A stretch of DNA of 64,000 nt from an uncultured Mycobacteriaceae bacterium (lineage in GTDB: Bacteria; Actinomycetota; Actinomycetes; Mycobacteriales; Mycobacteriaceae). The stretch spans positions 1 to 64,000 of the forward strand of contig CADEGF010000018.1 of NCBI GenBank assembly GCA_902826815.1, read 5' to 3'. Position 1 is the first letter of the stretch. Each line of letters starts with the position of its first letter. Made by a program: the position numbers and the translations under genes. Under the pieces are notes generated by a model. That model was not told the DNA's origin, did no database searches, and was given only the letters and a program-made list of their open reading frames with translations. Positions 49-9,256 of the stretch are shown in pieces.

Positions 49-654
49 ATGGTCGCAGCCGATCATCGGGGCGGATCGCCGCTTTCGGATGTCGACCTTC
101 GGGTGCGTGCCCTCGAATCTCTGCTCGTCGAGTCGGGATATGTCGAACGCGAGGCGCTGGACCGCCTGGTAGAAGCCCACGAGACGACGATCGGTCCGCA
201 CATCGGTGCCCGGGCCGTGGCGCGGGCCTGGGTCGACCCGGCCTTCCGGCACGACCTGCTCGCCGACGCCGCCACGGCGATTGCCCCGTTCACCCACCAG
301 GGCCGCGTCGGCGACCAGCTGATCGTCGTGGAGAACACCCCACAGGTGCACAACATGGTCGTGTGCACGCTGTGCTCGTGCTATCCGTGGGACGTGCTCG
401 GTCTGCCGCCGGTCTGGTACAAGTCACCCGCATATCGGTCGAGGGCCGTCAAAGAACCACGCGCCGTACTCGCCGAGCTCGGACTGACCCTCCCGGCCGA
501 AACTGCGGTTCGAGTGTGGGATTCGACAGCCGAACTGCGTTATCTGGTGTTACCGATGCGGCCGGCGGGGACTGACGGCTGGGCCGAGGACCGACTCGCC
601 GACCTGGTCGGGCGGGACGCCATGATCGGCACCGCCGTCCCGGTGGTCGCCTGA
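49..654 (+). CDS. nthA: Cobalt-type nitrile hydratase, alpha subunit
   Basis: Predicted catalytic subunit of nitrile hydratase, which hydrates nitriles to amides in the cytoplasm as an alpha-beta complex. The metal-binding claw CTLCSC is at residues 106-111. Its Thr at the second position is typical of the cobalt rather than the iron class, and two of its cysteines become oxidised in the mature enzyme. The flanking CYPWDVLGLPP and RPAGTDGW segments are also family hallmarks. At 201 aa it is near the normal length. The start lies only 19 nt after the tRNA-like CCA and no strong ribosome site is visible, so an upstream start or read-through from the tRNA promoter is possible. The beta gene overlaps its stop. 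Thiocyanate hydrolase gamma is the main alternative but is longer. Confidence 0.9.
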   Translation: MVAADHRGGSPLSDVDLRVRALESLLVESGYVEREALDRLVEAHETTIGPHIGARAVARAWVDPAFRHDLLADAATAIAPFTHQGRVGDQLIVVENTPQVHNMVVCTLCSCYPWDVLGLPPVWYKSPAYRSRAVKEPRAVLAELGLTLPAETAVRVWDSTAELRYLVLPMRPAGTDGWAEDRLADLVGRDAMIGTAVPVVA

Positions 655-1286
655 TGGACGGCGTGCACGACCTCGGCGGGATGGACGGCTACGGCCCGAT
701 CCACGTCGAACTCGACGAGCCGGTGTTTCACGCTCGGTGGGAAGGCCGGGTGTACGCCATGAACACGGCGATGAGCGCCCGTGGCATCTGGAATATCGAC
801 GTCGGCCGGTTCGCCATCGAGTCGCTACCGCCACAGACCTATGTCACCGGGTCCTACTACCAACTCTGGCTCGCCAAGCTCGAGAAGCTGCTCGACGATT
901 TCGGGCTGATCGGCGACGGCGACAACTCGTCCGACCACGGTTCAGCCTTCACCGTCGCCGATGTCCCTCGCGTCCTGGCCCGCGGATTGTACACCCGTCC
1001 GGCCGCGTCCGCGCCGCGTTTCTCGCCGGGCGAGCAAGTCCGCGCCCGCAACATCCACCCCCGACATCACACGAGGCTGCCGCGCTACACGCGCGGGCAT
1101 GTCGGCGTCGTCGAGCATGTGCACGCACCGAACGTGTTCCCCGACAGCGTTGTTCAGGGAGACGGCGAACAACCCCAGTGGCTGTACACCGTCCGCTTCG
1201 AAGGGAGTGAACTCTGGGGCGACGACGCAGAACCGGGCACCGAGGTTTCCGTCGACGCATTCGAGCCCTATCTGGAAGGGGCCTGA
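654..1286 (+). CDS. nthB: Nitrile hydratase, beta subunit
   Basis: Structural partner of the alpha subunit. The N-terminus reads MDGVHDLGGMDGYGPI, the classic beta-subunit start. The C-terminal half has the SH3-like domain with HPRHHTRLPRYTRGHVG, then VFPDSVV, QWLYTVRF and ELWG, all family signatures. Length is 210 aa, slightly short of the usual 220-235 aa. The start codon overlaps the alpha stop (TGATG), so translation is coupled. Assignment is very secure from motifs and adjacency. Confidence 0.92.
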   Translation: MDGVHDLGGMDGYGPIHVELDEPVFHARWEGRVYAMNTAMSARGIWNIDVGRFAIESLPPQTYVTGSYYQLWLAKLEKLLDDFGLIGDGDNSSDHGSAFTVADVPRVLARGLYTRPAASAPRFSPGEQVRARNIHPRHHTRLPRYTRGHVGVVEHVHAPNVFPDSVVQGDGEQPQWLYTVRFEGSELWGDDAEPGTEVSVDAFEPYLEGA

Positions 1287-1287
1287 A

Positions 1288-1593
1288 ATGACTGAGGTTG
1301 CTTTCGCTGAGCCATGGGAGGCGCGCGCGTTCGCGATGGTGCGCATACTGCGCGACCGACACATCGTCTCGGCCGACGAATGGACCTCCGCACTCGCCGC
1401 TCAGATAGCCGCCGCCGACACCGGTGAGGTGGCTTACCGGCACTGGCTCGCAGCCCTCGAACAGGTACTACGCGAGAAAGGCCTGGTGTCCGAGGAAGAT
1501 CTCGGGCGCTACCGGTCGGCATGGGCGCGAGCGGCACACCGCACACCGCATGGCGAGCCGATTGAGCTGACCGCCAACGATTTTCAGGACTGA
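1288..1593 (+). CDS. Nitrile hydratase activator / accessory protein
   Basis: A 101-aa protein beginning one base after the beta stop. It resembles the N-terminal part of the beta subunit: FAEPWEARAFAMVRIL, then YRHWLAALEQVLREKGLV. This is the pattern of the small activator (P14K/NhlE type) that carries or inserts cobalt into alpha and assists cysteine oxidation. The alpha-beta-activator order is the usual one for cobalt enzymes. No amidase, regulator or cobalt transporter follows, so amide hydrolysis would need an enzyme encoded elsewhere. Confidence 0.8.
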   Translation: MTEVAFAEPWEARAFAMVRILRDRHIVSADEWTSALAAQIAAADTGEVAYRHWLAALEQVLREKGLVSEEDLGRYRSAWARAAHRTPHGEPIELTANDFQD

Positions 1594-1616
1594 TACGGCG
1601 CGCTAGTGCAGTCCGT

Positions 1617-2216
1617 TCATTCGTGAACCCAGCTGTCGATGTCGGGCGCCACTGCCCGCCCGTCCCATCGCTTTACTCCCGGAATCGCGATGTCGAGAAG
1701 CTCCAGCCCCCGTGCCACCGTCTGATTCACAACATCGTCGAGTGTCGACGGCAGCGCGTAGAACGCCGGTACCGGCGGCATGATGATGGCCCCGTTCTTG
1801 GTCGCTTGAGCCATCAGGTCGATGTGGCCGGCATGCAATGGCGTCTCCCGCAGCATCAGGACCACCCTGCGGCGCTCCTTCAGGCACACGTCGGCCGCCC
1901 TGACGACGAGGTTGTCGTCGTAGCAGTGCGCGATGCCGCTCAGGGTCTTGACCGAACAGGGGGCGACCAGCATCCCGGCGGTGACGAACGAGCCCGATGC
2001 GATGGCGGCACCGATATCGCGCGGGCTATACAGCTGATCGGCAAAGGCACGTACCTCGTCGAGTTTGTAGGAGGTTTCGTGTTCGATCGTGCGATGTGCG
2101 GAAGCGGTCAGGACGACGTGGGACTCCACGTCTGGGACATCGCGCAGCAACTCGAGCGCTCGGACGCCGTAGATGGCACCCGACGCGCCGGTGATCGCGA
2201 TGACTACGCGCTTCAT
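1617..2216 (-). CDS. ubiX: UbiX-family flavin prenyltransferase
   Basis: Predicted to prenylate FMN to prenyl-FMN, the cofactor required by UbiD-type decarboxylases. The N-terminus has the flavin-binding ITGASGAIYG (residues 8-17). Further features are MLVAPCSVKTLSGIAH, then ERRRVVLMLRETPLHAGH and the NGAIIMPPVPAFY segment, all typical of UbiX/Pad1. At 199 aa it matches the family. The start at MKRVVIAITG overlaps the stop of the upstream TIGR02444-like gene by four bases, so the two are coupled. Two UbiD genes lie just across the divergent promoter and are its obvious clients. Confidence 0.92.
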   Translation of the reverse strand: MKRVVIAITGASGAIYGVRALELLRDVPDVESHVVLTASAHRTIEHETSYKLDEVRAFADQLYSPRDIGAAIASGSFVTAGMLVAPCSVKTLSGIAHCYDDNLVVRAADVCLKERRRVVLMLRETPLHAGHIDLMAQATKNGAIIMPPVPAFYALPSTLDDVVNQTVARGLELLDIAIPGVKRWDGRAVAPDIDSWVHE

Positions 2217-2800
2217 GACACCGCTCCGGCCTGTCTGGAAGCCGCTGCGGCGATCTTGGTCAGCAGGCGGCTCGCGTTGTCGGTGATCGGATCGGGCGAG
2301 TATGAGCCGATCGCGGCGATCATGCCGGCCATGATGGTTTCCGCCGCGGAGCTGGTGTCGGATACGTCCTCGAGCTCGCTCGACCACCGATCGAGGGCGG
2401 CGAGTTCCACCAGTTCGGCGTCAAGCTCCGCCTTTGCCACCTGGCTCCTCACCTCCTCGGTCCGCTCGCTCGGCGCTGGCGCCGGTCCCGCCTTCAGTTT
2501 GCGCCGAACATCGCGCAGTGAGCGCACCACCTCGGCGTGCCACGCATCTACCAGAGCGCGCGCGCCGGCGATCTGCTCTGCGCCTAGGCTCTGGCCCCTT
2601 ACTGCGCCGACGTATGCCGCCAGCAACAAGATATTGACGTCGAGGTCGAACTCGTCCTGGAGCGATACGCAGGCGGCCGCCACGCCGTCGGTCTGGTGGA
2701 CGGCGACAGCGAACTGGGGCAGGCTGACCCTTGCCGCAGGCGGCTCAACGCTGTACTTGTTGTATTTGCTAGCAACCGCCACGCAGAAAGTATGGAGCAT
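2213..2800 (-). CDS. TIGR02444-like protein (DUF2390)
   Basis: A 195-aa protein of unknown biochemical function. The part that can be recognised is FAVAVHQTDGVAAACVSLQ followed by DEFDLDVNILLLAAYVG, which fits the TIGR02444/DUF2390 pattern (ACLxLQD...DVNxLL). The rest looks helical with charged stretches. The ATG start at 2800 lies inside the first codons of the divergent ubiD gene, and a GTG at 2782 is an alternative. No later start would keep the conserved domain intact. It precedes ubiX with an ATGA overlap, which suggests a role tied to prenyl-FMN enzymes, but that is inference only. Confidence 0.65.
   Translation of the reverse strand: MLHTFCVAVASKYNKYSVEPPAARVSLPQFAVAVHQTDGVAAACVSLQDEFDLDVNILLLAAYVGAVRGQSLGAEQIAGARALVDAWHAEVVRSLRDVRRKLKAGPAPAPSERTEEVRSQVAKAELDAELVELAALDRWSSELEDVSDTSSAAETIMAGMIAAIGSYSPDPITDNASRLLTKIAAAASRQAGAVS
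2766..2775. promoter_or_regulatory. Palindrome in the divergent ubiD / TIGR02444 start region
   Basis: TTGCTAGCAA is a perfect 10-bp palindrome in an AT-rich island (about 2753-2795) where the two divergent transcripts begin. It is a plausible operator or promoter core. It also overlaps the predicted coding start of the minus-strand gene, so that start may be misplaced. Confidence 0.35.
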
Positions 2801-4234
2801 CGCATCGTGCCGTTCAGAGACTTTCGCGAGTTCCTCGACGCGCTGCGTGCCGACGGTGAGCTCATCGACGTCGATCGCGCCGTCGCGCTCGAACTCGAGG
2901 TCGCCAAGGCCATGCGCAAGAGTGCAGCGATTGCCGGGCCTGCCATCGTCTTCACCGACAACGGGACGAAGTTCCCCTTGGTGGGCGGTGTCTACAACTC
3001 GAACGCCAAGGCGCTGCTTGCCTACGGCTGCGACGAGGCCGGTGCGTTCGACGAGATTGTCGAGCGACTGAAAACCCGTATCCCCCCGACGTACGTCGAC
3101 GACGGTCCGGTGCACGAGAACGTGATCGTCGGCGACGACATCGACCTTTCGATTCTGCCGGTACCGCGCTACAGCCCCGACGACGGCGGCCCGTACATCA
3201 CACCGGGATTCGTGGTCAGCCATGACCCCGAGACCGACGTTCCGGACATCGGCCACTACCGCTGCGAGATCATCGACAGGCAGACGATGTCGCTGATGGC
3301 TGCGCCCAGCCACCGGTTCGCCAAGAACCAGGCCAAGGCATTACGCATGGGGCACAAGACGTTTCGTGCCGCTCTGGTCATCGGCGTGGACCCGATGATC
3401 GCCTACACATGCCCGATTCAGGTCCCTGAGGACACCAACGACTGGGAGGTTGTGGGCGGCATGCGAGGCGCGGCCGTCGAGCTCGTCAAATGCCGGACGA
3501 ACGACGTGTCGGTGCCTGCGCACGCCGAGGTCGTCATCGAGTTCGAGGTCGACTTCACCCAGACGGTCGCCGAGGGGCCGCTGGGCGAGTACACCGGCTA
3601 TTACACGCCCGCGTCACCGAAACCCGTTGTGCGGCCGACTGCCATCACCCATCGCAACGGCGCGTACTTCCAGGCCCTTCTGACCGGCAGGCCCACGACT
3701 GAGAATCACATCCTCAAACAGTTGTCGTTCGAGGCGTCGTTCTACGACATGTTCCGTCAACAGTTCCCGACGGTGACGGCGGTGGCCATCCCGCCGTCTG
3801 GCGGCGTCTACTTTCGCGTGGTCATCGCGATGCGGCCGCGCTACGCGGGCGAGGCGCGCAGCGCGATTCTCGCAGCGATGGGCAGCAACCTGCGACCGAA
3901 GACGGTCATCGTCGTCGACCCCGACATCGACGTGCACGACTCGGAACAGGTCGAGTGGGCGTTGGCGTTTCGCACCCAGCCGGCGCAGGACGTCATCGTC
4001 GTCGACAACCTGCCCGGAGGCCCGCTGGACCCGACGGCAGACGAGTCGCTGCCCGCTGATCACCGCACCGGATCGGCGATCGGCATCGACGCGACGTACC
4101 CGTACGGCACGGTGGCGAAGACGGCAGGCGACCTGTGCGGGCCTGCGTCGGAGGAACACGGCGGCCGGGTAGTCGAGGTTGCCGATGTTCCCGGCTGGCG
4201 CGACTACGACTTCCCGGAACTCGATGCGAGGTAG
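2792..4234 (+). CDS. UbiD-family (de)carboxylase, first copy
   Basis: Prenyl-FMN-dependent decarboxylase of the UbiD/Fdc1 superfamily, 480 aa. Residues matching the catalytic set are visible: R157 in GHYRCE, then E261 and E266 in EGPLGEYTGY. The 5-residue Glu spacing is the same as Fdc1 E277/E282. The substrate, probably an aromatic or unsaturated carboxylic acid, cannot be read from sequence. The start MEHRIVPFRDFREFL overlaps the divergent gene's start by nine bases. An SRPBCC gene and a second, distinct UbiD follow on the same strand. Identity to a named enzyme (AroY, PhdA, phenylphosphate carboxylase) is not claimed. Confidence 0.9.
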   Translation: MEHRIVPFRDFREFLDALRADGELIDVDRAVALELEVAKAMRKSAAIAGPAIVFTDNGTKFPLVGGVYNSNAKALLAYGCDEAGAFDEIVERLKTRIPPTYVDDGPVHENVIVGDDIDLSILPVPRYSPDDGGPYITPGFVVSHDPETDVPDIGHYRCEIIDRQTMSLMAAPSHRFAKNQAKALRMGHKTFRAALVIGVDPMIAYTCPIQVPEDTNDWEVVGGMRGAAVELVKCRTNDVSVPAHAEVVIEFEVDFTQTVAEGPLGEYTGYYTPASPKPVVRPTAITHRNGAYFQALLTGRPTTENHILKQLSFEASFYDMFRQQFPTVTAVAIPPSGGVYFRVVIAMRPRYAGEARSAILAAMGSNLRPKTVIVVDPDIDVHDSEQVEWALAFRTQPAQDVIVVDNLPGGPLDPTADESLPADHRTGSAIGIDATYPYGTVAKTAGDLCGPASEEHGGRVVEVADVPGWRDYDFPELDAR

Positions 4235-4242
4235 GAGGATCG

Positions 4243-4665
4243 GTGCCTGAGATCGACCATGAGATCAAGATCAACGCCGCACCTGAGAAGGTGTTCGCTG
4301 CGCTCACGACACTCGACGGGGTGAAGGGCTGGCACAACCCGGGCGCCGAGGGAACCGGTGAGGTGGGCAGCACGTGGGTCTTCGCGTTCGTCGACCATCC
4401 CGAATTCGCCTGGGAGGTCATCTCTTCCGATGAGCCGAATCAGGTGGTGTGGCGGTGTGTGCGCGGGCCGGGGGACTCCGTCGGAACGACGGCGACGTTC
4501 TCGCTGTCGCCAACCGACGACGGCCGCACGTTGCTCGAGCATACCCACGCCGGGTGGCCCGGTACGCACGGCAACTACCGCAAATGCAACACCACATGGG
4601 GCGTACTTCTGCACCACCTTCGCGACTTCGTCGAAACCGGCGACTCCGCACCAGCATTCGAGTGA
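4243..4665 (+). CDS. SRPBCC (START-like, AHSA1-type) protein between two ubiD genes
   Basis: A 140-aa protein of the helix-grip fold. It opens with IDHEIKINAAPEKVFAALTT, then GWHNPGAEGTGEVGSTWVF and a C-terminal helix GVLLHHLRDFVETG, the AHSA1/polyketide-cyclase layout. It starts at GTG 4243 behind a strong AGGAGG at 4233-4238, and that site decides the start. Placement between two UbiD genes suggests it binds the substrate or product of the pathway. No catalytic residue can be assigned. Confidence 0.8.
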   Translation: MPEIDHEIKINAAPEKVFAALTTLDGVKGWHNPGAEGTGEVGSTWVFAFVDHPEFAWEVISSDEPNQVVWRCVRGPGDSVGTTATFSLSPTDDGRTLLEHTHAGWPGTHGNYRKCNTTWGVLLHHLRDFVETGDSAPAFE

Positions 4666-4675
4666 AGGGCCTGTC

Positions 4676-6310
4676 ATGCCCCAGCAGAGCCTGAGTGACT
4701 TCGTCGATGAAATGGAGAAGGCGGGCATGTTGGTCCGCATCACCGAGGAGAAGCGGGTCGACGAGCTCCCGTCGGTGATGGAGGCGAACCCGCTGACCGC
4801 TGTTCTGGTGGAGAAGGTGACCGACTGCGAGTTCCAGTTCCTGGCGAATGCCTACTCCAACCAGGATCAGACCGCATGGGCGCTCGGCTGTGAGAAGAGC
4901 GAAACCGGCCGCAGGATGGTCGAACTCGGCAAGGGCCGCATCAAGCCTGAGATCGTCGACACCGCGCCGTGCAAGGAGGTGATCCTCACCGGCGACGACG
5001 TCGATCTGACCCGGCTACCCCTGTTCCTACACCATGACCGCGACGGTCACGCCTACACCAACGACAACCTGGTCGTGACGAAGCATCCCGACACCGGTGT
5101 CTACGACTGGGGCATCTACCGGAGCATGTTCCGCACCCGCAACGAGAAAATGTTCGACATGACGTGCACGTCGCACCGCGCGCGGCTGCACGCCCAGGCC
5201 GCAGAAGCCAAGGGGCACAACCTCGAACTCGCGATCGTGCTCGGCGGGCCGCTGGTGGACAAGGTCGCCGCACTGACGGGTGTTCCGCCCAACACCGACG
5301 ACTTCGAGGTACTCGGGAGCTTCTACGGTCACCCCGCGAAGCTGGTGAAGTGCGAGACTATCGACCTGCTGGTGCCCGCCAACGCTGAGATCGTGATCGA
5401 GTGCGAGCTGATGGCGACCGAAGGCCTGACCCACGACGAAGGCCCCTACGGCGAGTTCACCGGCATGTACGGCGGTGGTATCAAGTCCAACTATCGCGCG
5501 GTCGTCAAGGCGATGACGTTCCGCAACGGCGGCATCTTTCAGCACGCGACGATCGGCGGAAACCACCCCTGGTACACCGACAACATGTTGCAGCTGCCGA
5601 TGATCGAGTCCGACCTGTACAACGGGCTCGCCATGGCAGGCATCGACGTGAAGGAGGTCCGTGCCCCGCTGGGTGGACTGTCCAACATCGCGTACGCGAA
5701 GATAAAGCCGCGCGGCGCGGGGGACTCCATGCAGGCTCTCGGGGTGATGCTGACCTGCTCGAAACAGGGGTTGCCGAAGATTGCGATGGTCTTCGACGAC
5801 GACGTCGACATCTGGGACGACAACGCGGTGCAGTTCGCGATGGCCTTCCGCTACATGCCGCACCTGGACACCGTGACGATCCCGAGCGGCAACACGATGA
5901 CGGTGGATCCGATGATCGCGGAGGACGCCGCACCGGGCACCTCGTCGAAGATCGGGCTGGACTGCACGATCCCGATCAGTCCCAAGTTCGTGCCTTCGCA
6001 CTTCGACCGGAGCACGGTCTTCGTCCTCGGCGATCCGCCGCCGGACGTCGTGACCATGACGGAGGACGAACTGACCGCGGATATGGAGACCTTGATTGAC
6101 GAGGCACCTCGCACCTGGAAGGAGATTCTCCAGCACTACAACGGGCAGTCCTACAAGGTCGTCTACCGCGCATTCAGCAATCTGCGGCCACGGCTGGGCC
6201 GCTGCAGTGACGCGCCGTGGTACCGATACACGTTCTCCGACACCGACTTCGCCGTCGAAGCGCCCGTTGCGCCTCTGTCAAACTTCGATCCGCGGCACGG
6301 GGCGCACTAG
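4676..6310 (+). CDS. UbiD-family (de)carboxylase, second copy
   Basis: A second prenyl-FMN-dependent decarboxylase, 544 aa and clearly divergent from the first. R149 in GIYRSMF and E255/E260 in EGPYGEFTGMY match the catalytic Arg-Glu-Glu arrangement. Other family segments include GGPLVDKVAALTGVP, LVKCETIDLLVPA and NHPWYTDNMLQLP. It begins 10 nt after the SRPBCC stop, so the three genes look like one operon. Two UbiDs with one shared UbiX suggest either two successive decarboxylations, a heteromeric complex, or a carboxylase/decarboxylase pair. The sequence alone does not choose. Confidence 0.9.
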   Translation: MPQQSLSDFVDEMEKAGMLVRITEEKRVDELPSVMEANPLTAVLVEKVTDCEFQFLANAYSNQDQTAWALGCEKSETGRRMVELGKGRIKPEIVDTAPCKEVILTGDDVDLTRLPLFLHHDRDGHAYTNDNLVVTKHPDTGVYDWGIYRSMFRTRNEKMFDMTCTSHRARLHAQAAEAKGHNLELAIVLGGPLVDKVAALTGVPPNTDDFEVLGSFYGHPAKLVKCETIDLLVPANAEIVIECELMATEGLTHDEGPYGEFTGMYGGGIKSNYRAVVKAMTFRNGGIFQHATIGGNHPWYTDNMLQLPMIESDLYNGLAMAGIDVKEVRAPLGGLSNIAYAKIKPRGAGDSMQALGVMLTCSKQGLPKIAMVFDDDVDIWDDNAVQFAMAFRYMPHLDTVTIPSGNTMTVDPMIAEDAAPGTSSKIGLDCTIPISPKFVPSHFDRSTVFVLGDPPPDVVTMTEDELTADMETLIDEAPRTWKEILQHYNGQSYKVVYRAFSNLRPRLGRCSDAPWYRYTFSDTDFAVEAPVAPLSNFDPRHGAH

Positions 6311-6340
6311 GTGTTCGGCGGGCCCCGAAACGAAAACAAG

Positions 6341-6367
6341 CCGCGCTATCCGCGCTATCCGCGCTTA
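6341..6367. repeat. Triple 9-bp tandem repeat at the 3' end of an SRPBCC gene
   Basis: Two exact CCGCGCTAT units (6341-6349, 6350-6358) and a third CCGCGCTTA (6359-6367). Read on the minus strand, the middle unit supplies the TAG stop of the SRPBCC gene, so slippage here would change its C-terminus. Confidence 0.7.
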
Positions 6368-6858
6368 GAGTATTTCGCCCAATAGCGTTGGCCGTCGCTG
6401 GGCATCTTGCCGAAGGCGGCCTTGATGGCGGGCGCGAGGATCTTGACCGGTAGCGCCAATCTGTCCCTCGGCTCAAGGGCGAGTACCCATGTGAACAGAG
6501 TGTCGTCGCCGTCGGGCTCGACGAGGTAGTCCTCGGCGAACCGCGTGAAGACATTCGCGGTGGACTCGTACACCGCGAACGAGTGCCGCCGTCCCTCCTC
6601 CCAGAGGAAGTAGCGCTCCCGCATGCGCGGGCCGACGGGCGGGGCGACCTCCCGGGTGGTTCCGACGCCGAACGGTCGCGGCGACGTCCAGGTGACGCTC
6701 TTGAGAGTCGCGCCCCAGGCCGCGATCGACTCGTCAGAGATCAGCGACTCCCAGACCTTCGCGGGCGGCGCGGCGAAGCGTTTCTGATAGGTGAAGACGT
6801 GCGGCGCCGATGCGAGAAAATTCTCATCGGCGGGTTCGAGCGGATACCAGCGCGTCAC
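6355..6858 (-). CDS. SRPBCC family protein
   Basis: A 167-aa START-like protein convergent with the second ubiD. It has the START-like beginning VFTYQKRFAAPPAKVWESLI, then SIAAWGATLKSVTWTSPRPFGVGTTREV and a C-terminal helix KILAPAIKAAFGKMP. This is the layout of polyketide-cyclase-like proteins in mycobacteria. The substrate is unknown. The stop lies in a short tandem repeat. The 5' end faces the regulatory region ahead of the P450 operon, so it may share that control. Confidence 0.75.
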   Translation of the reverse strand: MTRWYPLEPADENFLASAPHVFTYQKRFAAPPAKVWESLISDESIAAWGATLKSVTWTSPRPFGVGTTREVAPPVGPRMRERYFLWEEGRRHSFAVYESTANVFTRFAEDYLVEPDGDDTLFTWVLALEPRDRLALPVKILAPAIKAAFGKMPSDGQRYWAKYSKRG

Positions 6859-6910
6859 AACTGACCAGCATGCCGCATCGGAGCCGGCACCAACAAAGAC
6901 GCTTTATTGC

Positions 6911-6918
6911 ACATATGT
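6911..6918. promoter_or_regulatory. ACATATGT palindrome in the intergenic region
   Basis: A perfect 8-bp palindrome within the AT-rich sequence TTTATTGCACATATGTAG, between the divergent SRPBCC and P450 genes. It may be a promoter element or a minor operator. Evidence is limited to symmetry and position. Confidence 0.25.
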
Positions 6919-6938
6919 AGAAGGGGGTTGTCGTCGCC

Positions 6939-6976
6939 GGTACGTTCGCGTACCGTAGCCGGTACCTTGGAGTACC
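6939..6976. promoter_or_regulatory. Tandem GGTAC-N6-GTACC operators before the P450 operon
   Basis: Two 16-bp inverted repeats in series: GGTACGTTCGCGTACC (6939-6954) and GGTACCTTGGAGTACC (6961-6976). Their centres are 22 bp apart, about two helical turns, which would place two dimers on the same face of DNA. The second ends 13 bp before the P450 start codon, so binding there would block transcription or translation initiation. TetR- or MarR-type repression is likely; the protein is not identifiable in the window. Confidence 0.75.
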
Positions 6977-6989
6977 ACGGAGGGGCGAT

Positions 6990-8339
6990 ATGGGCGAGGC
7001 CACGACAGATCCCGTGCGGTTGCCACCGGGGCCTCGGATTCCGAAGGCCCTGATGGGCATCGCATTCCTGACCGCACGCCATCGCGCGGTCGCTGCGATC
7101 GGCCGCCGGTTCGGGGACGCGTTCACGATGAACCTGCCGATCTTCGGGGAGACCGTCGTCATCAGTGACCCGGCGTTGATCAAGGACCTGTCCACCACCA
7201 GCAGCGACCTCGTCGGCCGGGCGTCCAACCTCGGCACCGTCCTCGGTCCTGGCTCGACGTTCAGCCTGGACGGCGACGAGCATCGCGCCAGGCGGAAGCT
7301 GCTCGTGCCGCCGTTCCACGGCAAGCGGATGGTCGGTTACGAGGCGATCGTCGAAGAAGAAGTCATGCGCGAGCTCGCGAGCTGGCCCGAGGGTCGGGAG
7401 TTCGAGACGCTGCAGCCGATGATGCGGATCACCCTCAACGCCATCCTTCGTACCGTGTTCGGTGCACAGGGCAGTGCTTTCGACGAGCTCCGTGAGCTGT
7501 TCCCACCGATGATTCCGCTCGCGTCGCGAATGGCATTGATGCCCGCGGCTTTTCAGCGTGACCTCGGCCCGTGGAGCCCGTGGGGACGCGTCCAGCGGTA
7601 CCGCAGGCGCTACGACGAGATCATTGCCGACCTCATCGCCGAGGCCCGCAACGATCCCGCGTTCTCCGAGCGCAACGACGTGCTCGCGCTCATGCTGTCG
7701 GCGCGCTACGAGGACGGTTCGCCCATCTCCGACGACCATATCGCCGACGAACTCCTCACCCTGCTGTCGGCAGGCCACGAGACGACGGCCACGACGCTGG
7801 CGTGGGCTGTCGAGCGGATGCGCAGGCATCCGCGGCTGCTGACCAGGCTCAGCGCCGAGGTCGACGCAGGCGGTACCGAACTGCTGCAGGCCACGATCTG
7901 GGAAGTGCAGCGCATCCGCCCCGTGGTGGAGGCCACCATCAGGATCGTCCGGGAACGAATACGGCTGGGCGAGTGGGTCATCCCCGAAGGCCACGCCGTC
8001 ATCGCCAGCATCACGATGTCGCACTCGTCCGAGCGGAACTTCGCCGACCCCAAGGCGTTCAACCCGGACCGCTTCCTCGGCGGCAACCCCGATACGCACA
8101 CCTGGATTCCCTACGGCGGGGGCATCCGCCGGTGTATCGGCGCCGCATTCGCCAACATGGAGATGAACGTGACACTGAAGACGTTGTTGCGCGAATTCGA
8201 GTTCGGTACAACGTATGCCGCAGGCGAACGCAATCACTCGCGTGGCGTCGCCACAGCACCGGCACACGGCGGGCGCGCCGTTGTCAACCGAAGACGAGCA
8301 CGAGTGAGGATCGGGAACTCAGAGAAGGTGTCGGCATGA
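6990..8339 (+). CDS. Cytochrome P450 (CYP138-like)
   Basis: Soluble haem-thiolate monooxygenase, 449 aa. The I-helix motif AGHETT is at 261-266, the ExxR pair is E305/R308 (EVQR), and the haem-binding loop YGGGIRRCIG has its ligand at C382. The overall look (LPPGPRIPKALMGIAFL start, long form) recalls mycobacterial CYP138, though I cannot confirm the subfamily. The substrate is unknown. It heads a tightly packed operon (hydrolase, SDR, quinone reductase), overlaps the next gene by ATGA, and has a ribosome site GGAGGGG just upstream. Electron-transfer partners are not encoded nearby. Confidence 0.9.
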   Translation: MGEATTDPVRLPPGPRIPKALMGIAFLTARHRAVAAIGRRFGDAFTMNLPIFGETVVISDPALIKDLSTTSSDLVGRASNLGTVLGPGSTFSLDGDEHRARRKLLVPPFHGKRMVGYEAIVEEEVMRELASWPEGREFETLQPMMRITLNAILRTVFGAQGSAFDELRELFPPMIPLASRMALMPAAFQRDLGPWSPWGRVQRYRRRYDEIIADLIAEARNDPAFSERNDVLALMLSARYEDGSPISDDHIADELLTLLSAGHETTATTLAWAVERMRRHPRLLTRLSAEVDAGGTELLQATIWEVQRIRPVVEATIRIVRERIRLGEWVIPEGHAVIASITMSHSSERNFADPKAFNPDRFLGGNPDTHTWIPYGGGIRRCIGAAFANMEMNVTLKTLLREFEFGTTYAAGERNHSRGVATAPAHGGRAVVNRRRARVRIGNSEKVSA

Positions 8340-9256
8340 CCGAAGAACAGACTGTCGTCGACGTCGGCCGCGGTATCGAACTGTGCTACGAACAGATCGG
8401 CGATCCGAATGATCCGCCGGTCGTGCTCATCGGCGGGCTGGGCCAACAGTTGCACGGCTCCTGGCCGACGGACTTCGCGACGGCACTTGCCGCACGCGGC
8501 TATCGCGTCACCCGGTTCGACAACCGCGACGTCGGACGGTCCACACACATGGACTTCCCGGCGCCGAAGCCGCTCGCGATCCTGCGCGGCGGCAGCCACC
8601 CGCGGCAGTACCACCTCGGCGACATGGCGCGCGACACCGTCGGCCTGCTCGATGTGCTCGGCTACCAGGATGCCCATCTGGCCGGAATCTCGATGGGCGG
8701 CATGATCGCTCAGACCGTCGCCGCGCACTATCCGGGCCGGGCGCGCACGCTGACGTCGATCATGTCCACCACCGGTGCGCCGCGAATCGGACGGCCCGCG
8801 ATGTCGACATGGCGGCGGTTGGCGACGGCCAAGCCGCCGCGTACCCGCGACGAGGCGATGGAGCGCGACGTCGCGATCTTCCGTCACATCGGATCACACG
8901 GCTTCCCCTTCGACGAACGCCGCGTGCGCGACCGGGCAGCCGTCGGCTGGGACCGCGATCCGACGAGTGCGGGCACCCCGCGTCAGCTCGCCGCCATCTT
9001 CCGCTCAGGCGATCGCACACGCGAGCTCGGCGGAATCGACGTGCCCACCTTGGTGATCCACGGCGACCGCGACCGGATGGTCAATCCGACCGGAGGCACG
9101 GCGACGGCCTGTGCCATCTCCGGCGCACGGCTGGAGACCATCCCCGGCATGGGCCACGACCTACCGGCAGGGGCGTGGGATCGCCTGATGAACCTGATCA
9201 CCGACCACGTCGCCTCGGCGCACACCAACCAAACCGAACTGAGGGAACAACGATGA
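8336..9256 (+). CDS. Alpha/beta hydrolase
   Basis: A 306-aa alpha/beta-fold hydrolase. The oxyanion segment GGLGQQLHGSWP is near residue 40. The nucleophile S119 is in GISMGG, and the catalytic His is in GMGHDLP near the C-terminus. The acid is probably the Asp in HGDRDRMV. It likely cleaves an ester or lactone made by the P450/SDR pathway. Its start overlaps the P450 stop and its stop overlaps the SDR start, so all three are co-translated. No signal peptide. Confidence 0.88.
   Translation: MTEEQTVVDVGRGIELCYEQIGDPNDPPVVLIGGLGQQLHGSWPTDFATALAARGYRVTRFDNRDVGRSTHMDFPAPKPLAILRGGSHPRQYHLGDMARDTVGLLDVLGYQDAHLAGISMGGMIAQTVAAHYPGRARTLTSIMSTTGAPRIGRPAMSTWRRLATAKPPRTRDEAMERDVAIFRHIGSHGFPFDERRVRDRAAVGWDRDPTSAGTPRQLAAIFRSGDRTRELGGIDVPTLVIHGDRDRMVNPTGGTATACAISGARLETIPGMGHDLPAGAWDRLMNLITDHVASAHTNQTELREQR

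Follow-up and report, generated by a model that had tools for sequence, protein, structure and literature searches.

A recurrent UbiX/UbiD gene cassette with two candidate small partner proteins in Mycobacteriaceae, Alphaproteobacteria and other hosts

A 64,000-nucleotide stretch of DNA from an uncultured Mycobacteriaceae bacterium, the whole of which is referred to here as the window (contig C18 of a 6.87 Mb genome whose nearest named relatives are Mycolicibacterium), carries at positions 1617-6310 a cluster of five genes in two divergently oriented groups. The minus-strand group consists of a TIGR02444/DUF2390 gene followed by a gene for a UbiX-family flavin prenyltransferase; on the plus strand, two UbiD-family genes (UbiD1 and UbiD2) enclose a gene for an SRPBCC protein. 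The question raised by this locus is whether such a set constitutes a single system working with prenylated flavin mononucleotide (prenyl-FMN, prFMN) and, if so, what each of its members contributes. An earlier note on this DNA had suggested that it does, with the START-like SRPBCC protein as a dedicated partner of the decarboxylases and the TIGR02444 gene as a possible servant of the cofactor. The comparative analysis reported here indicates that the five genes very probably work together, and we tentatively favor, with a confidence just short of even, the reading that they form a horizontally mobile and self-contained prenyl-FMN cassette, composed of sub-modules, that decarboxylates acids.

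One line of support for this reading is the recurrence of the gene set. In a genus sample of 148 genomes, UbiD2 is present at an identity of at least 79% in eight, that of the window included, and UbiD1 adjoins it in each of them; UbiD1 itself occurs in nine, the ninth of which (G086) holds TIGR02444 and UbiD1 without UbiD2. A species-representative collection of named genomes was also scanned with exact peptide patterns, which miss distant relatives, and 58 of the 71 matching stretches were confirmed as UbiD2 loci. Twenty-three of these are mycobacterial-type loci, from Mycobacteriaceae, Antrihabitans, Gordonia and one Actinomycetes metagenome-assembled genome (MAG). The 35 others include Reyranella, Ancylobacter, Aquabacter, Acidisoma, Chelatococcus and further Alphaproteobacteria, Legionella massiliensis, single betaproteobacterial, acidobacterial and Chlamydiia MAGs, and two Actinomycetota MAGs (L098 and L099). 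UbiX was found in 46 of the 58 loci and UbiD1 also in 46, or 47 if a copy in two pieces (L077) is counted. Some loci are short (e.g. L069, L100 and L101), so a gene not found in a locus may lie beyond its stretch, and the open reading frame maps, drawn by a codon-composition rule, missed some genes (e.g. the FUSC exporter gene of L087). When 12 genomes without an adjacent UbiX were searched (those of 11 of the 12 such loci, L069 being excluded, plus G086), all 12 yielded a UbiX match elsewhere, 41% identical in G560 and with an internal stop in G540 and G565.

The flanks of the cassette differ among hosts. By eye, a universal-stress gene accompanies 11 of the 23 mycobacterial-type loci and a uvrA-like gene nine of them, ipdA-ipdB-ipdC-like genes flank the M. 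brisbanense type, and nitrile hydratase and P450 genes, which are not part of the cassette, flank it in the window. A set that recurs in dozens of genomes exceeds what chance would produce, and the check on co-occurrence proposed in the earlier note does not refute its reading. The cassette moves as a unit among hosts and is not specific to mycobacteria.

Within the cassette, the SRPBCC gene is tied to UbiD2. Across several phyla, 53 of the 58 loci have it just upstream of UbiD2, at a distance of 8-60 bp, and in one further locus it is found 694 bp upstream, with UbiX in between. In the protein, H6, W30, F55, W57, the GPG of residues 75-77, W105, C115 and W119 are invariant in 22 of 22 aligned sequences, including the SRPBCC partners of other UbiDs in L145 and L042, and its closest solved chain is an Aha1 domain protein (2m89, 3.1e-27). 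The suggestion of a START-like decarboxylase partner therefore gains from this survey, and we consider it rather likely that the SRPBCC protein is a true partner of UbiD2, even if the gene was not found in four of the 58 loci, all of the M. brisbanense type, which weighs against this view. A separate observation concerns three mycobacterial loci (L065, L104 and L043), in which TIGR02444-UbiD1(-UbiD2) adjoins what appear by eye to be ipdA-, ipdB- and ipdC-like genes; SRPBCC was not found in these loci and UbiX is not adjacent. The ipdA, ipdB and ipdC genes belong to cholesterol-ring breakdown.

The second link is that between TIGR02444 and UbiX, which is newly seen here. TIGR02444 is present in 11 of the 148 genus genomes, adjoining UbiD1 in eight, and in only one of 396 evenly drawn Actinomycetota genomes, namely that of the window. 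Among 19 same-strand TIGR02444/UbiX pairs, 18 lie within -4 to +4 nt of each other; the nineteenth (L145, positions 406-3619, genome G138) has the reverse order, in a UbiD-SRPBCC-UbiX-TIGR02444 operon whose UbiD, of 550 aa, is 30% identical to UbiD1. This operon, with its third and distant UbiD, is the cassette in a simpler form. In L056 and L058, TIGR02444 is not beside ubiX but elsewhere in the genome, and in Aquabacter spiritensis a TIGR02444-UbiX pair (UbiX 73% identical) is located separately from SRPBCC-UbiD2. TIGR02444 was found in 61 and UbiX in 80 of 190 evenly drawn alphaproteobacterial genomes, some of them incomplete, as are some in the corresponding draw of 185 gammaproteobacterial genomes. 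The two co-occur in 59 genomes, TIGR02444 stands alone in two, UbiX alone in 21 and neither is present in 108 (Fisher p 1.6e-28, phylogeny ignored). The distance from TIGR02444 to ubiX is at most 1 kb for 24 of the 63 alphaproteobacterial copies and at most 10 kb for 31; these 31 pairs are convergent in 28 cases, codirectional in two and divergent in one. For 28 of the 63 copies, the contig carries no UbiX match. TIGR02444 and UbiX come together in different arrangements: overlapping in mycobacteria, reversed in L145 and convergent in Alphaproteobacteria. As mycobacteria use menaquinone and not ubiquinone, TIGR02444 is linked to UbiX itself and not to ubiquinone. Other genomes thus lend support to the notion that the gene serves the cofactor: 59 of the 61 alphaproteobacterial carriers hold UbiX, and the mycobacterial pairs abut or overlap.

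Several observations weigh against such a role. The convergent alphaproteobacterial order may have been inherited once, and the Fisher test ignores shared ancestry; moreover, 21 of the 80 UbiX-bearing alphaproteobacterial genomes lack TIGR02444, and in some Reyranella-type genomes the gene appears, by eye, near purE and a small DUF465-like gene. TIGR02444 was not found in the cassette-bearing genomes of L048 and L062, nor in 17 of the 34 non-mycobacterial-type cassette genomes searched, and among the 35 non-mycobacterial-type loci it lies inside the cassette in L091 alone, so that UbiD2 needs no TIGR02444 in those genomes. It occurs in 16 of the 185 gammaproteobacterial genomes, a set that was not searched for UbiX, and flanks of up to 1.5 kb contain UbiX in one of the 16; among control genomes, that of E. 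coli gave no TIGR02444 match, whereas Caulobacter vibrioides has the gene. Taken together, the cassette genomes without it and the gammaproteobacterial and E. coli pattern make TIGR02444 at most one of several ways of serving the cofactor. The protein is modeled as all-helical (AlphaFold2, mean pLDDT 89.7), with G39, Q48, W87, L95, R96, R99, E125, E129 and E132 conserved in all 26 aligned sequences; the sequence search returned no significant PDB match and the structure search no significant match of any kind, which leaves gene context as its tie to prFMN. By analogy with LpdD and PhdC, discussed below, we give a role in delivery or maturation of the cofactor an equal chance of being right or wrong. 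Two further TIGR02444 loci deserve mention. In L146 (G105), a frame of 112 aa at 8701-9039, beside a lone TIGR02444, joins residues 1-26 of an L145-type UbiD to residues 156-189 of its UbiX, and is a deletion scar of an operon of that type. The TIGR02444 contig of L147 (G120) looks gammaproteobacterial by eye, as contamination would.

The five genes of the window are listed in Table 1. They are present as the earlier note had described them, and their family scores pass the curated cut-offs, with the exception of UbiD2 against TIGR00148 (227 bits, cut-off 245). UbiX scores 251.9 bits with NF004685 (cut-off 188) and 219.1 with TIGR00421 (cut-off 108.9), which places it in the curated subfamily. 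The TIGR02444 protein reaches 81.7 bits with its namesake (cut-off 48.3) and 86.3 with PF09523 (cut-off 25), the SRPBCC protein 46 bits with the AHSA1 family PF08327 (cut-off 22.1), and the N-terminal, rift-related and C-terminal UbiD domains (PF20695, PF01977 and PF20696) are above cut-off in both UbiDs. The TIGR02444 stop overlaps the UbiX start by 4 nt (ATGA), and the plus-strand genes are separated by 8 bp (UbiD1-SRPBCC) and 10 bp (SRPBCC-UbiD2). Translation of TIGR02444 may begin at the listed ATG (2800, giving 195 aa) or, from alignment with relatives, near GTG 2731, and that of UbiD1 possibly at GTG 2807 instead of 2792. The Arg-Glu-Glu motif, whose residues were assigned by reference to Fdc1 and UbiD, is complete in both enzymes, as previously claimed, and invariant among their aligned relatives: R157, E261 and E266 in 22 of 22 UbiD1 sequences, R149, E255 and E260 in 24 of 24 UbiD2 sequences. 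On the strength of this conservation, UbiD1 and UbiD2 should both be catalysts. They are the two PF01977 matches of the window genome, a profile search (E 0.001) finding no third UbiD there; one further PF02441 match, on contig C37, is perhaps CoaBC, judging by frame length.

Table 1. Genes of the UbiX/UbiD cluster in the window
Feature	Position	Strand	Details
UbiX-family flavin prenyltransferase, 199 aa	1617..2216	-	second gene of minus-strand pair; PF02441 1.2e-39, NF004685
TIGR02444/DUF2390 protein	2213..2800	-	first gene of minus-strand pair; TIGR02444 5e-23, PF09523 2.2e-24
UbiD1, expected prFMN-dependent (de)carboxylase, 480 aa	2792..4234	+	PF01977, PF20695, PF20696
SRPBCC/AHSA1 protein, 140 aa, GTG start	4243..4665	+	PF08327 7.4e-12
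UbiD2, expected prFMN-dependent (de)carboxylase, 544 aa	4676..6310	+	PF01977, PF20695, PF20696

The two UbiDs are about 33% identical. In a 45-row tree that also included other mycobacterial UbiDs and E. coli UbiD, inferred by a quick method and with several long branches, they form two separate clades (SH-aLRT 99-100), neither of which holds a solved or NCBIfam-equivalog member. The concern that they might belong to unrelated, well-characterized clades is accordingly not borne out. The best profile match of both is HmfF (291 bits for UbiD1, 182 for UbiD2), and the best solved matches by single sequence are HmfF 6h6v for UbiD1 (212 bits) and VdcC 7ae4 for UbiD2 (116 bits). Against the NCBIfam equivalog and exception models listed for them, both fall far short of each cut-off: UbiD1 and UbiD2 score, respectively, 288 and 184.2 bits with VdcC (NF041204, cut-off 650), 206.3 and 110.6 with the ubiquinone UbiD NF008175 (cut-off 788), and 232.7 and 155.2 with the menaquinone-type decarboxylase TIGR03701 (cut-off 495.9). 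UbiD2 is in addition extended at its C-terminus by about 100 residues, and the helices modeled there at 463-506 are of good confidence; its overall model (m492d49129681) is middling (mean pLDDT 76.7), and its best Foldseek match is HmfF 6h6x (1.8e-32).

Under the reading we favor, the minus-strand TIGR02444-UbiX pair would supply the cofactor and the plus-strand UbiD1-SRPBCC-UbiD2 operon would carry out the chemistry. UbiX would make prFMNH2, and TIGR02444, binding UbiX or prFMN, may help its hand-over to apo-UbiD or its oxidative maturation there. UbiD1, alone, and UbiD2, together with SRPBCC, would then decarboxylate (hetero)aromatic or acrylic acids; the two non-orthologous enzymes may each have an acid of their own or may attack carboxyl groups in succession, and the helix-grip SRPBCC, as the partner of UbiD2, may hold substrate, product or cofactor. 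The cofactor role of TIGR02444, the ligand role of SRPBCC, the decarboxylating direction and the aromatic substrate are what we infer from these comparisons. The direction is suggested by the mainly aerobic hosts. Aromatic acids, a plausible substrate class, are favored by the FUSC exporter gene beside UbiD1 and by a Pro-Trp pair that UbiD2 shares with the phenolic-acid decarboxylase 7ae4. A bolder proposal, which we hold with less confidence, would make TIGR02444/DUF2390 an undescribed family of factors for prenyl-FMN, whether as partner of UbiX, chaperone or maturase, acting both in such cassettes and in the ubiquinone pathway of many Alphaproteobacteria, and the UbiD-linked SRPBCC proteins, with their invariant Cys, Trp and His, a second new type of partner that would bind substrate or prFMN for UbiD2.

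The exporter introduces the sub-modular structure of the cassette and also its best-surviving rival explanation. The usual alphaproteobacterial order is SRPBCC-UbiD2-UbiX, with UbiD1 beside a FUSC_2 exporter gene close by. Of the 32 non-mycobacterial-type loci whose stretches extend 4 kb to either side, 24 hold the exporter (23 by clustering and L087 by tblastn), and all 24 also hold UbiD1 (in two pieces in L077), while Legionella is the only one of the eight FUSC-less loci to do so; before the correction of L087, the FUSC/UbiD1 table read 23/0/2/7 (Fisher p 1.1e-5). UbiD1 is therefore associated with the exporter, as UbiD2 is with SRPBCC. Such an association would suit a resistance device, in which toxic (hetero)aromatic acids are decarboxylated, with FUSC export in Alphaproteobacteria, rather than catabolized, and no ring-cleavage or CoA-ligase family, with families judged by eye or, for six of them, by a Pfam scan, was seen to recur in more than five of the 35 non-mycobacterial-type loci. 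We nonetheless deem this explanation unlikely, because tblastn of 21 mycobacterial-type loci returned a FUSC-like match in L066 alone (32% identity, 1.3 kb downstream), and because amidohydrolase (8/35), TctC protein (7/35) and sulfatase (6/35) genes, and an isochorismatase-like hydrolase in L091, would fit catabolism.

Somewhat less likely still is the possibility that two independent decarboxylases merely share one UbiX, with TIGR02444 and SRPBCC as passengers lacking any prFMN role. In mycobacterial-type loci, UbiD1 and UbiD2 show a weak correlation of their pairwise identities (r 0.31, 231 pairs, 22 loci, a value obtained, like the other correlations given here, without a null model), as opposed to r 0.68 for UbiX-TIGR02444 (136 pairs, 17 loci) and 0.75 for SRPBCC-UbiX (153 pairs, 18 loci) in the same type; UbiD1 was not found in 11 of the 58 UbiD2 loci and stands without UbiD2 in G086, and this rival also accommodates the cassette genomes without TIGR02444 and the four loci without SRPBCC. 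Against this rival speak the position of SRPBCC so close upstream of UbiD2 in several phyla, its recurrence in L145, where UbiX, TIGR02444 and a distantly related UbiD accompany it, and the association of TIGR02444 with UbiX in several gene orders, with the genomes of L056 and L058 carrying TIGR02444 elsewhere.

The opposite view is that UbiD1 and UbiD2 form a heteromeric (de)carboxylase with SRPBCC as small subunit. The earlier note had proposed modeling the two UbiDs as a heteromer, and the arrangement finds a precedent in phenylphosphate carboxylase, which has two UbiD-like proteins and further small subunits. The two genes are neighbors on one strand in the 22 mycobacterial-type loci holding both, and their divergences do correlate in the other loci (r 0.86, 276 pairs, 24 loci), a value that does not speak against such a complex. 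An obligate heteromer is nevertheless disfavored by the weak mycobacterial correlation, with discordant identities such as those of L048 (75% for UbiD1, 92% for UbiD2), and by the loci in which either UbiD stands without the other. Scores also fall far below the phenylphosphate carboxylase cut-offs, both for the alpha subunit (TIGR02723, cut-off 564.6; UbiD1 159.1, UbiD2 130.1) and for the beta subunit (TIGR02724, cut-off 468.95; UbiD1 199.5, UbiD2 75.3). The heteromer thus fares poorly in this survey, and we regard it as improbable.

A role for the cassette as a step in a nitrile pathway is very improbable: the adjacent nitrile hydratase genes (49-1593) do end 23 bp from ubiX, and nitrile hydratase adjoins the system in L080, but this is the only such case among the 58 collection loci, none occurs in the nine genus loci (about 20 kb each, including G124, with a UbiD2 92% identical), and no amidase was found among the ten proteins at 49-8339 and four further window proteins scanned. 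The nitrile hydratase genes encode an alpha subunit (with CTLCSC at residue 106, presumably of the Co type), a beta subunit and accessory proteins, and are convergent with ubiX. Some 20 bp before them, bases 1-29 of the window resemble by eye a tRNA 3' end, with T arm, acceptor and CCA; no second copy of these bases was found in the window.

Further features of individual loci were also noted. On a Methylobacterium nodulans plasmid (L106, 11329-11873), the UbiX gene, situated between SRPBCC and UbiD2, is in two pieces, and in ten of the 35 non-mycobacterial-type loci (e.g. L083, 12240-12623) a family represented by a CopC-domain protein directly follows UbiX. L042 (9696-13923, G054) holds a UbiD2-like gene (43%), a luciferase-like gene, UbiX and SRPBCC, adjoining genes that by eye are PrpD-like and PrpF-like; it is a sister system and may reveal the substrate class. 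Genome G086 has, in L148 (5010-7042), a VdcC relative (552 bits to 7ae4) with its own UbiX.

Among known systems, the vanillate decarboxylase VdcBCD of Sedimentibacter resembles the cassette in the aligned Pro-Trp pair of 7ae4 and UbiD2, which lies in the same region, but the true VdcC relative of G086 outscores UbiD2 against 7ae4 by 552 bits to 116. In the furandicarboxylate decarboxylase HmfF of Pelotomaculum, His296 aligns with the invariant H306 of UbiD1, whereas the positions of Arg304 and Arg331 are Phe and variable, respectively, in UbiD1. A further known system is PhdA-PhdB-PhdC of Mycolicibacterium fortuitum, in which a UbiD (PhdA, the phenazine-1-carboxylate decarboxylase), a UbiX (PhdB) and a small prFMN maturase (PhdC) share one mycobacterial operon (PMC13040415). 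The cassette differs in having two UbiDs, and TIGR02444 and SRPBCC as its small partners; the HpaC-like flavin reductase family of PhdC was not detected among the ten proteins at 49-8339, PhdC's own sequence not having served as query. The structure 6da6, presumably PhdA, matches UbiD1 at 135 bits and UbiD2 at 103, in neither case as the best hit. In the gallate decarboxylase LpdB-LpdC-LpdD of Lactobacillus plantarum, a small protein co-transcribed with UbiX likewise aids UbiD loading: LpdD is described as a prFMNH2-binding chaperone that resembles the Pba3/4 chaperone (PMC10865409). The TIGR02444 model is all-helical.

UbiD enzymes are sought after as catalysts of C-C bond formation and cleavage with CO2, yet some of them cannot be isolated in active form owing to failed cofactor loading and maturation, and the small genes found near UbiDs are described as diverse, many of them of unassigned function. 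The locus analyzed here makes one candidate helper family, TIGR02444, nameable from its genomic context, with relatives in many Alphaproteobacteria, and adds two UbiD clades without a solved member. Even if TIGR02444 should turn out to be idle, the cassette would still comprise two decarboxylases not described before and a small partner gene dedicated to them.

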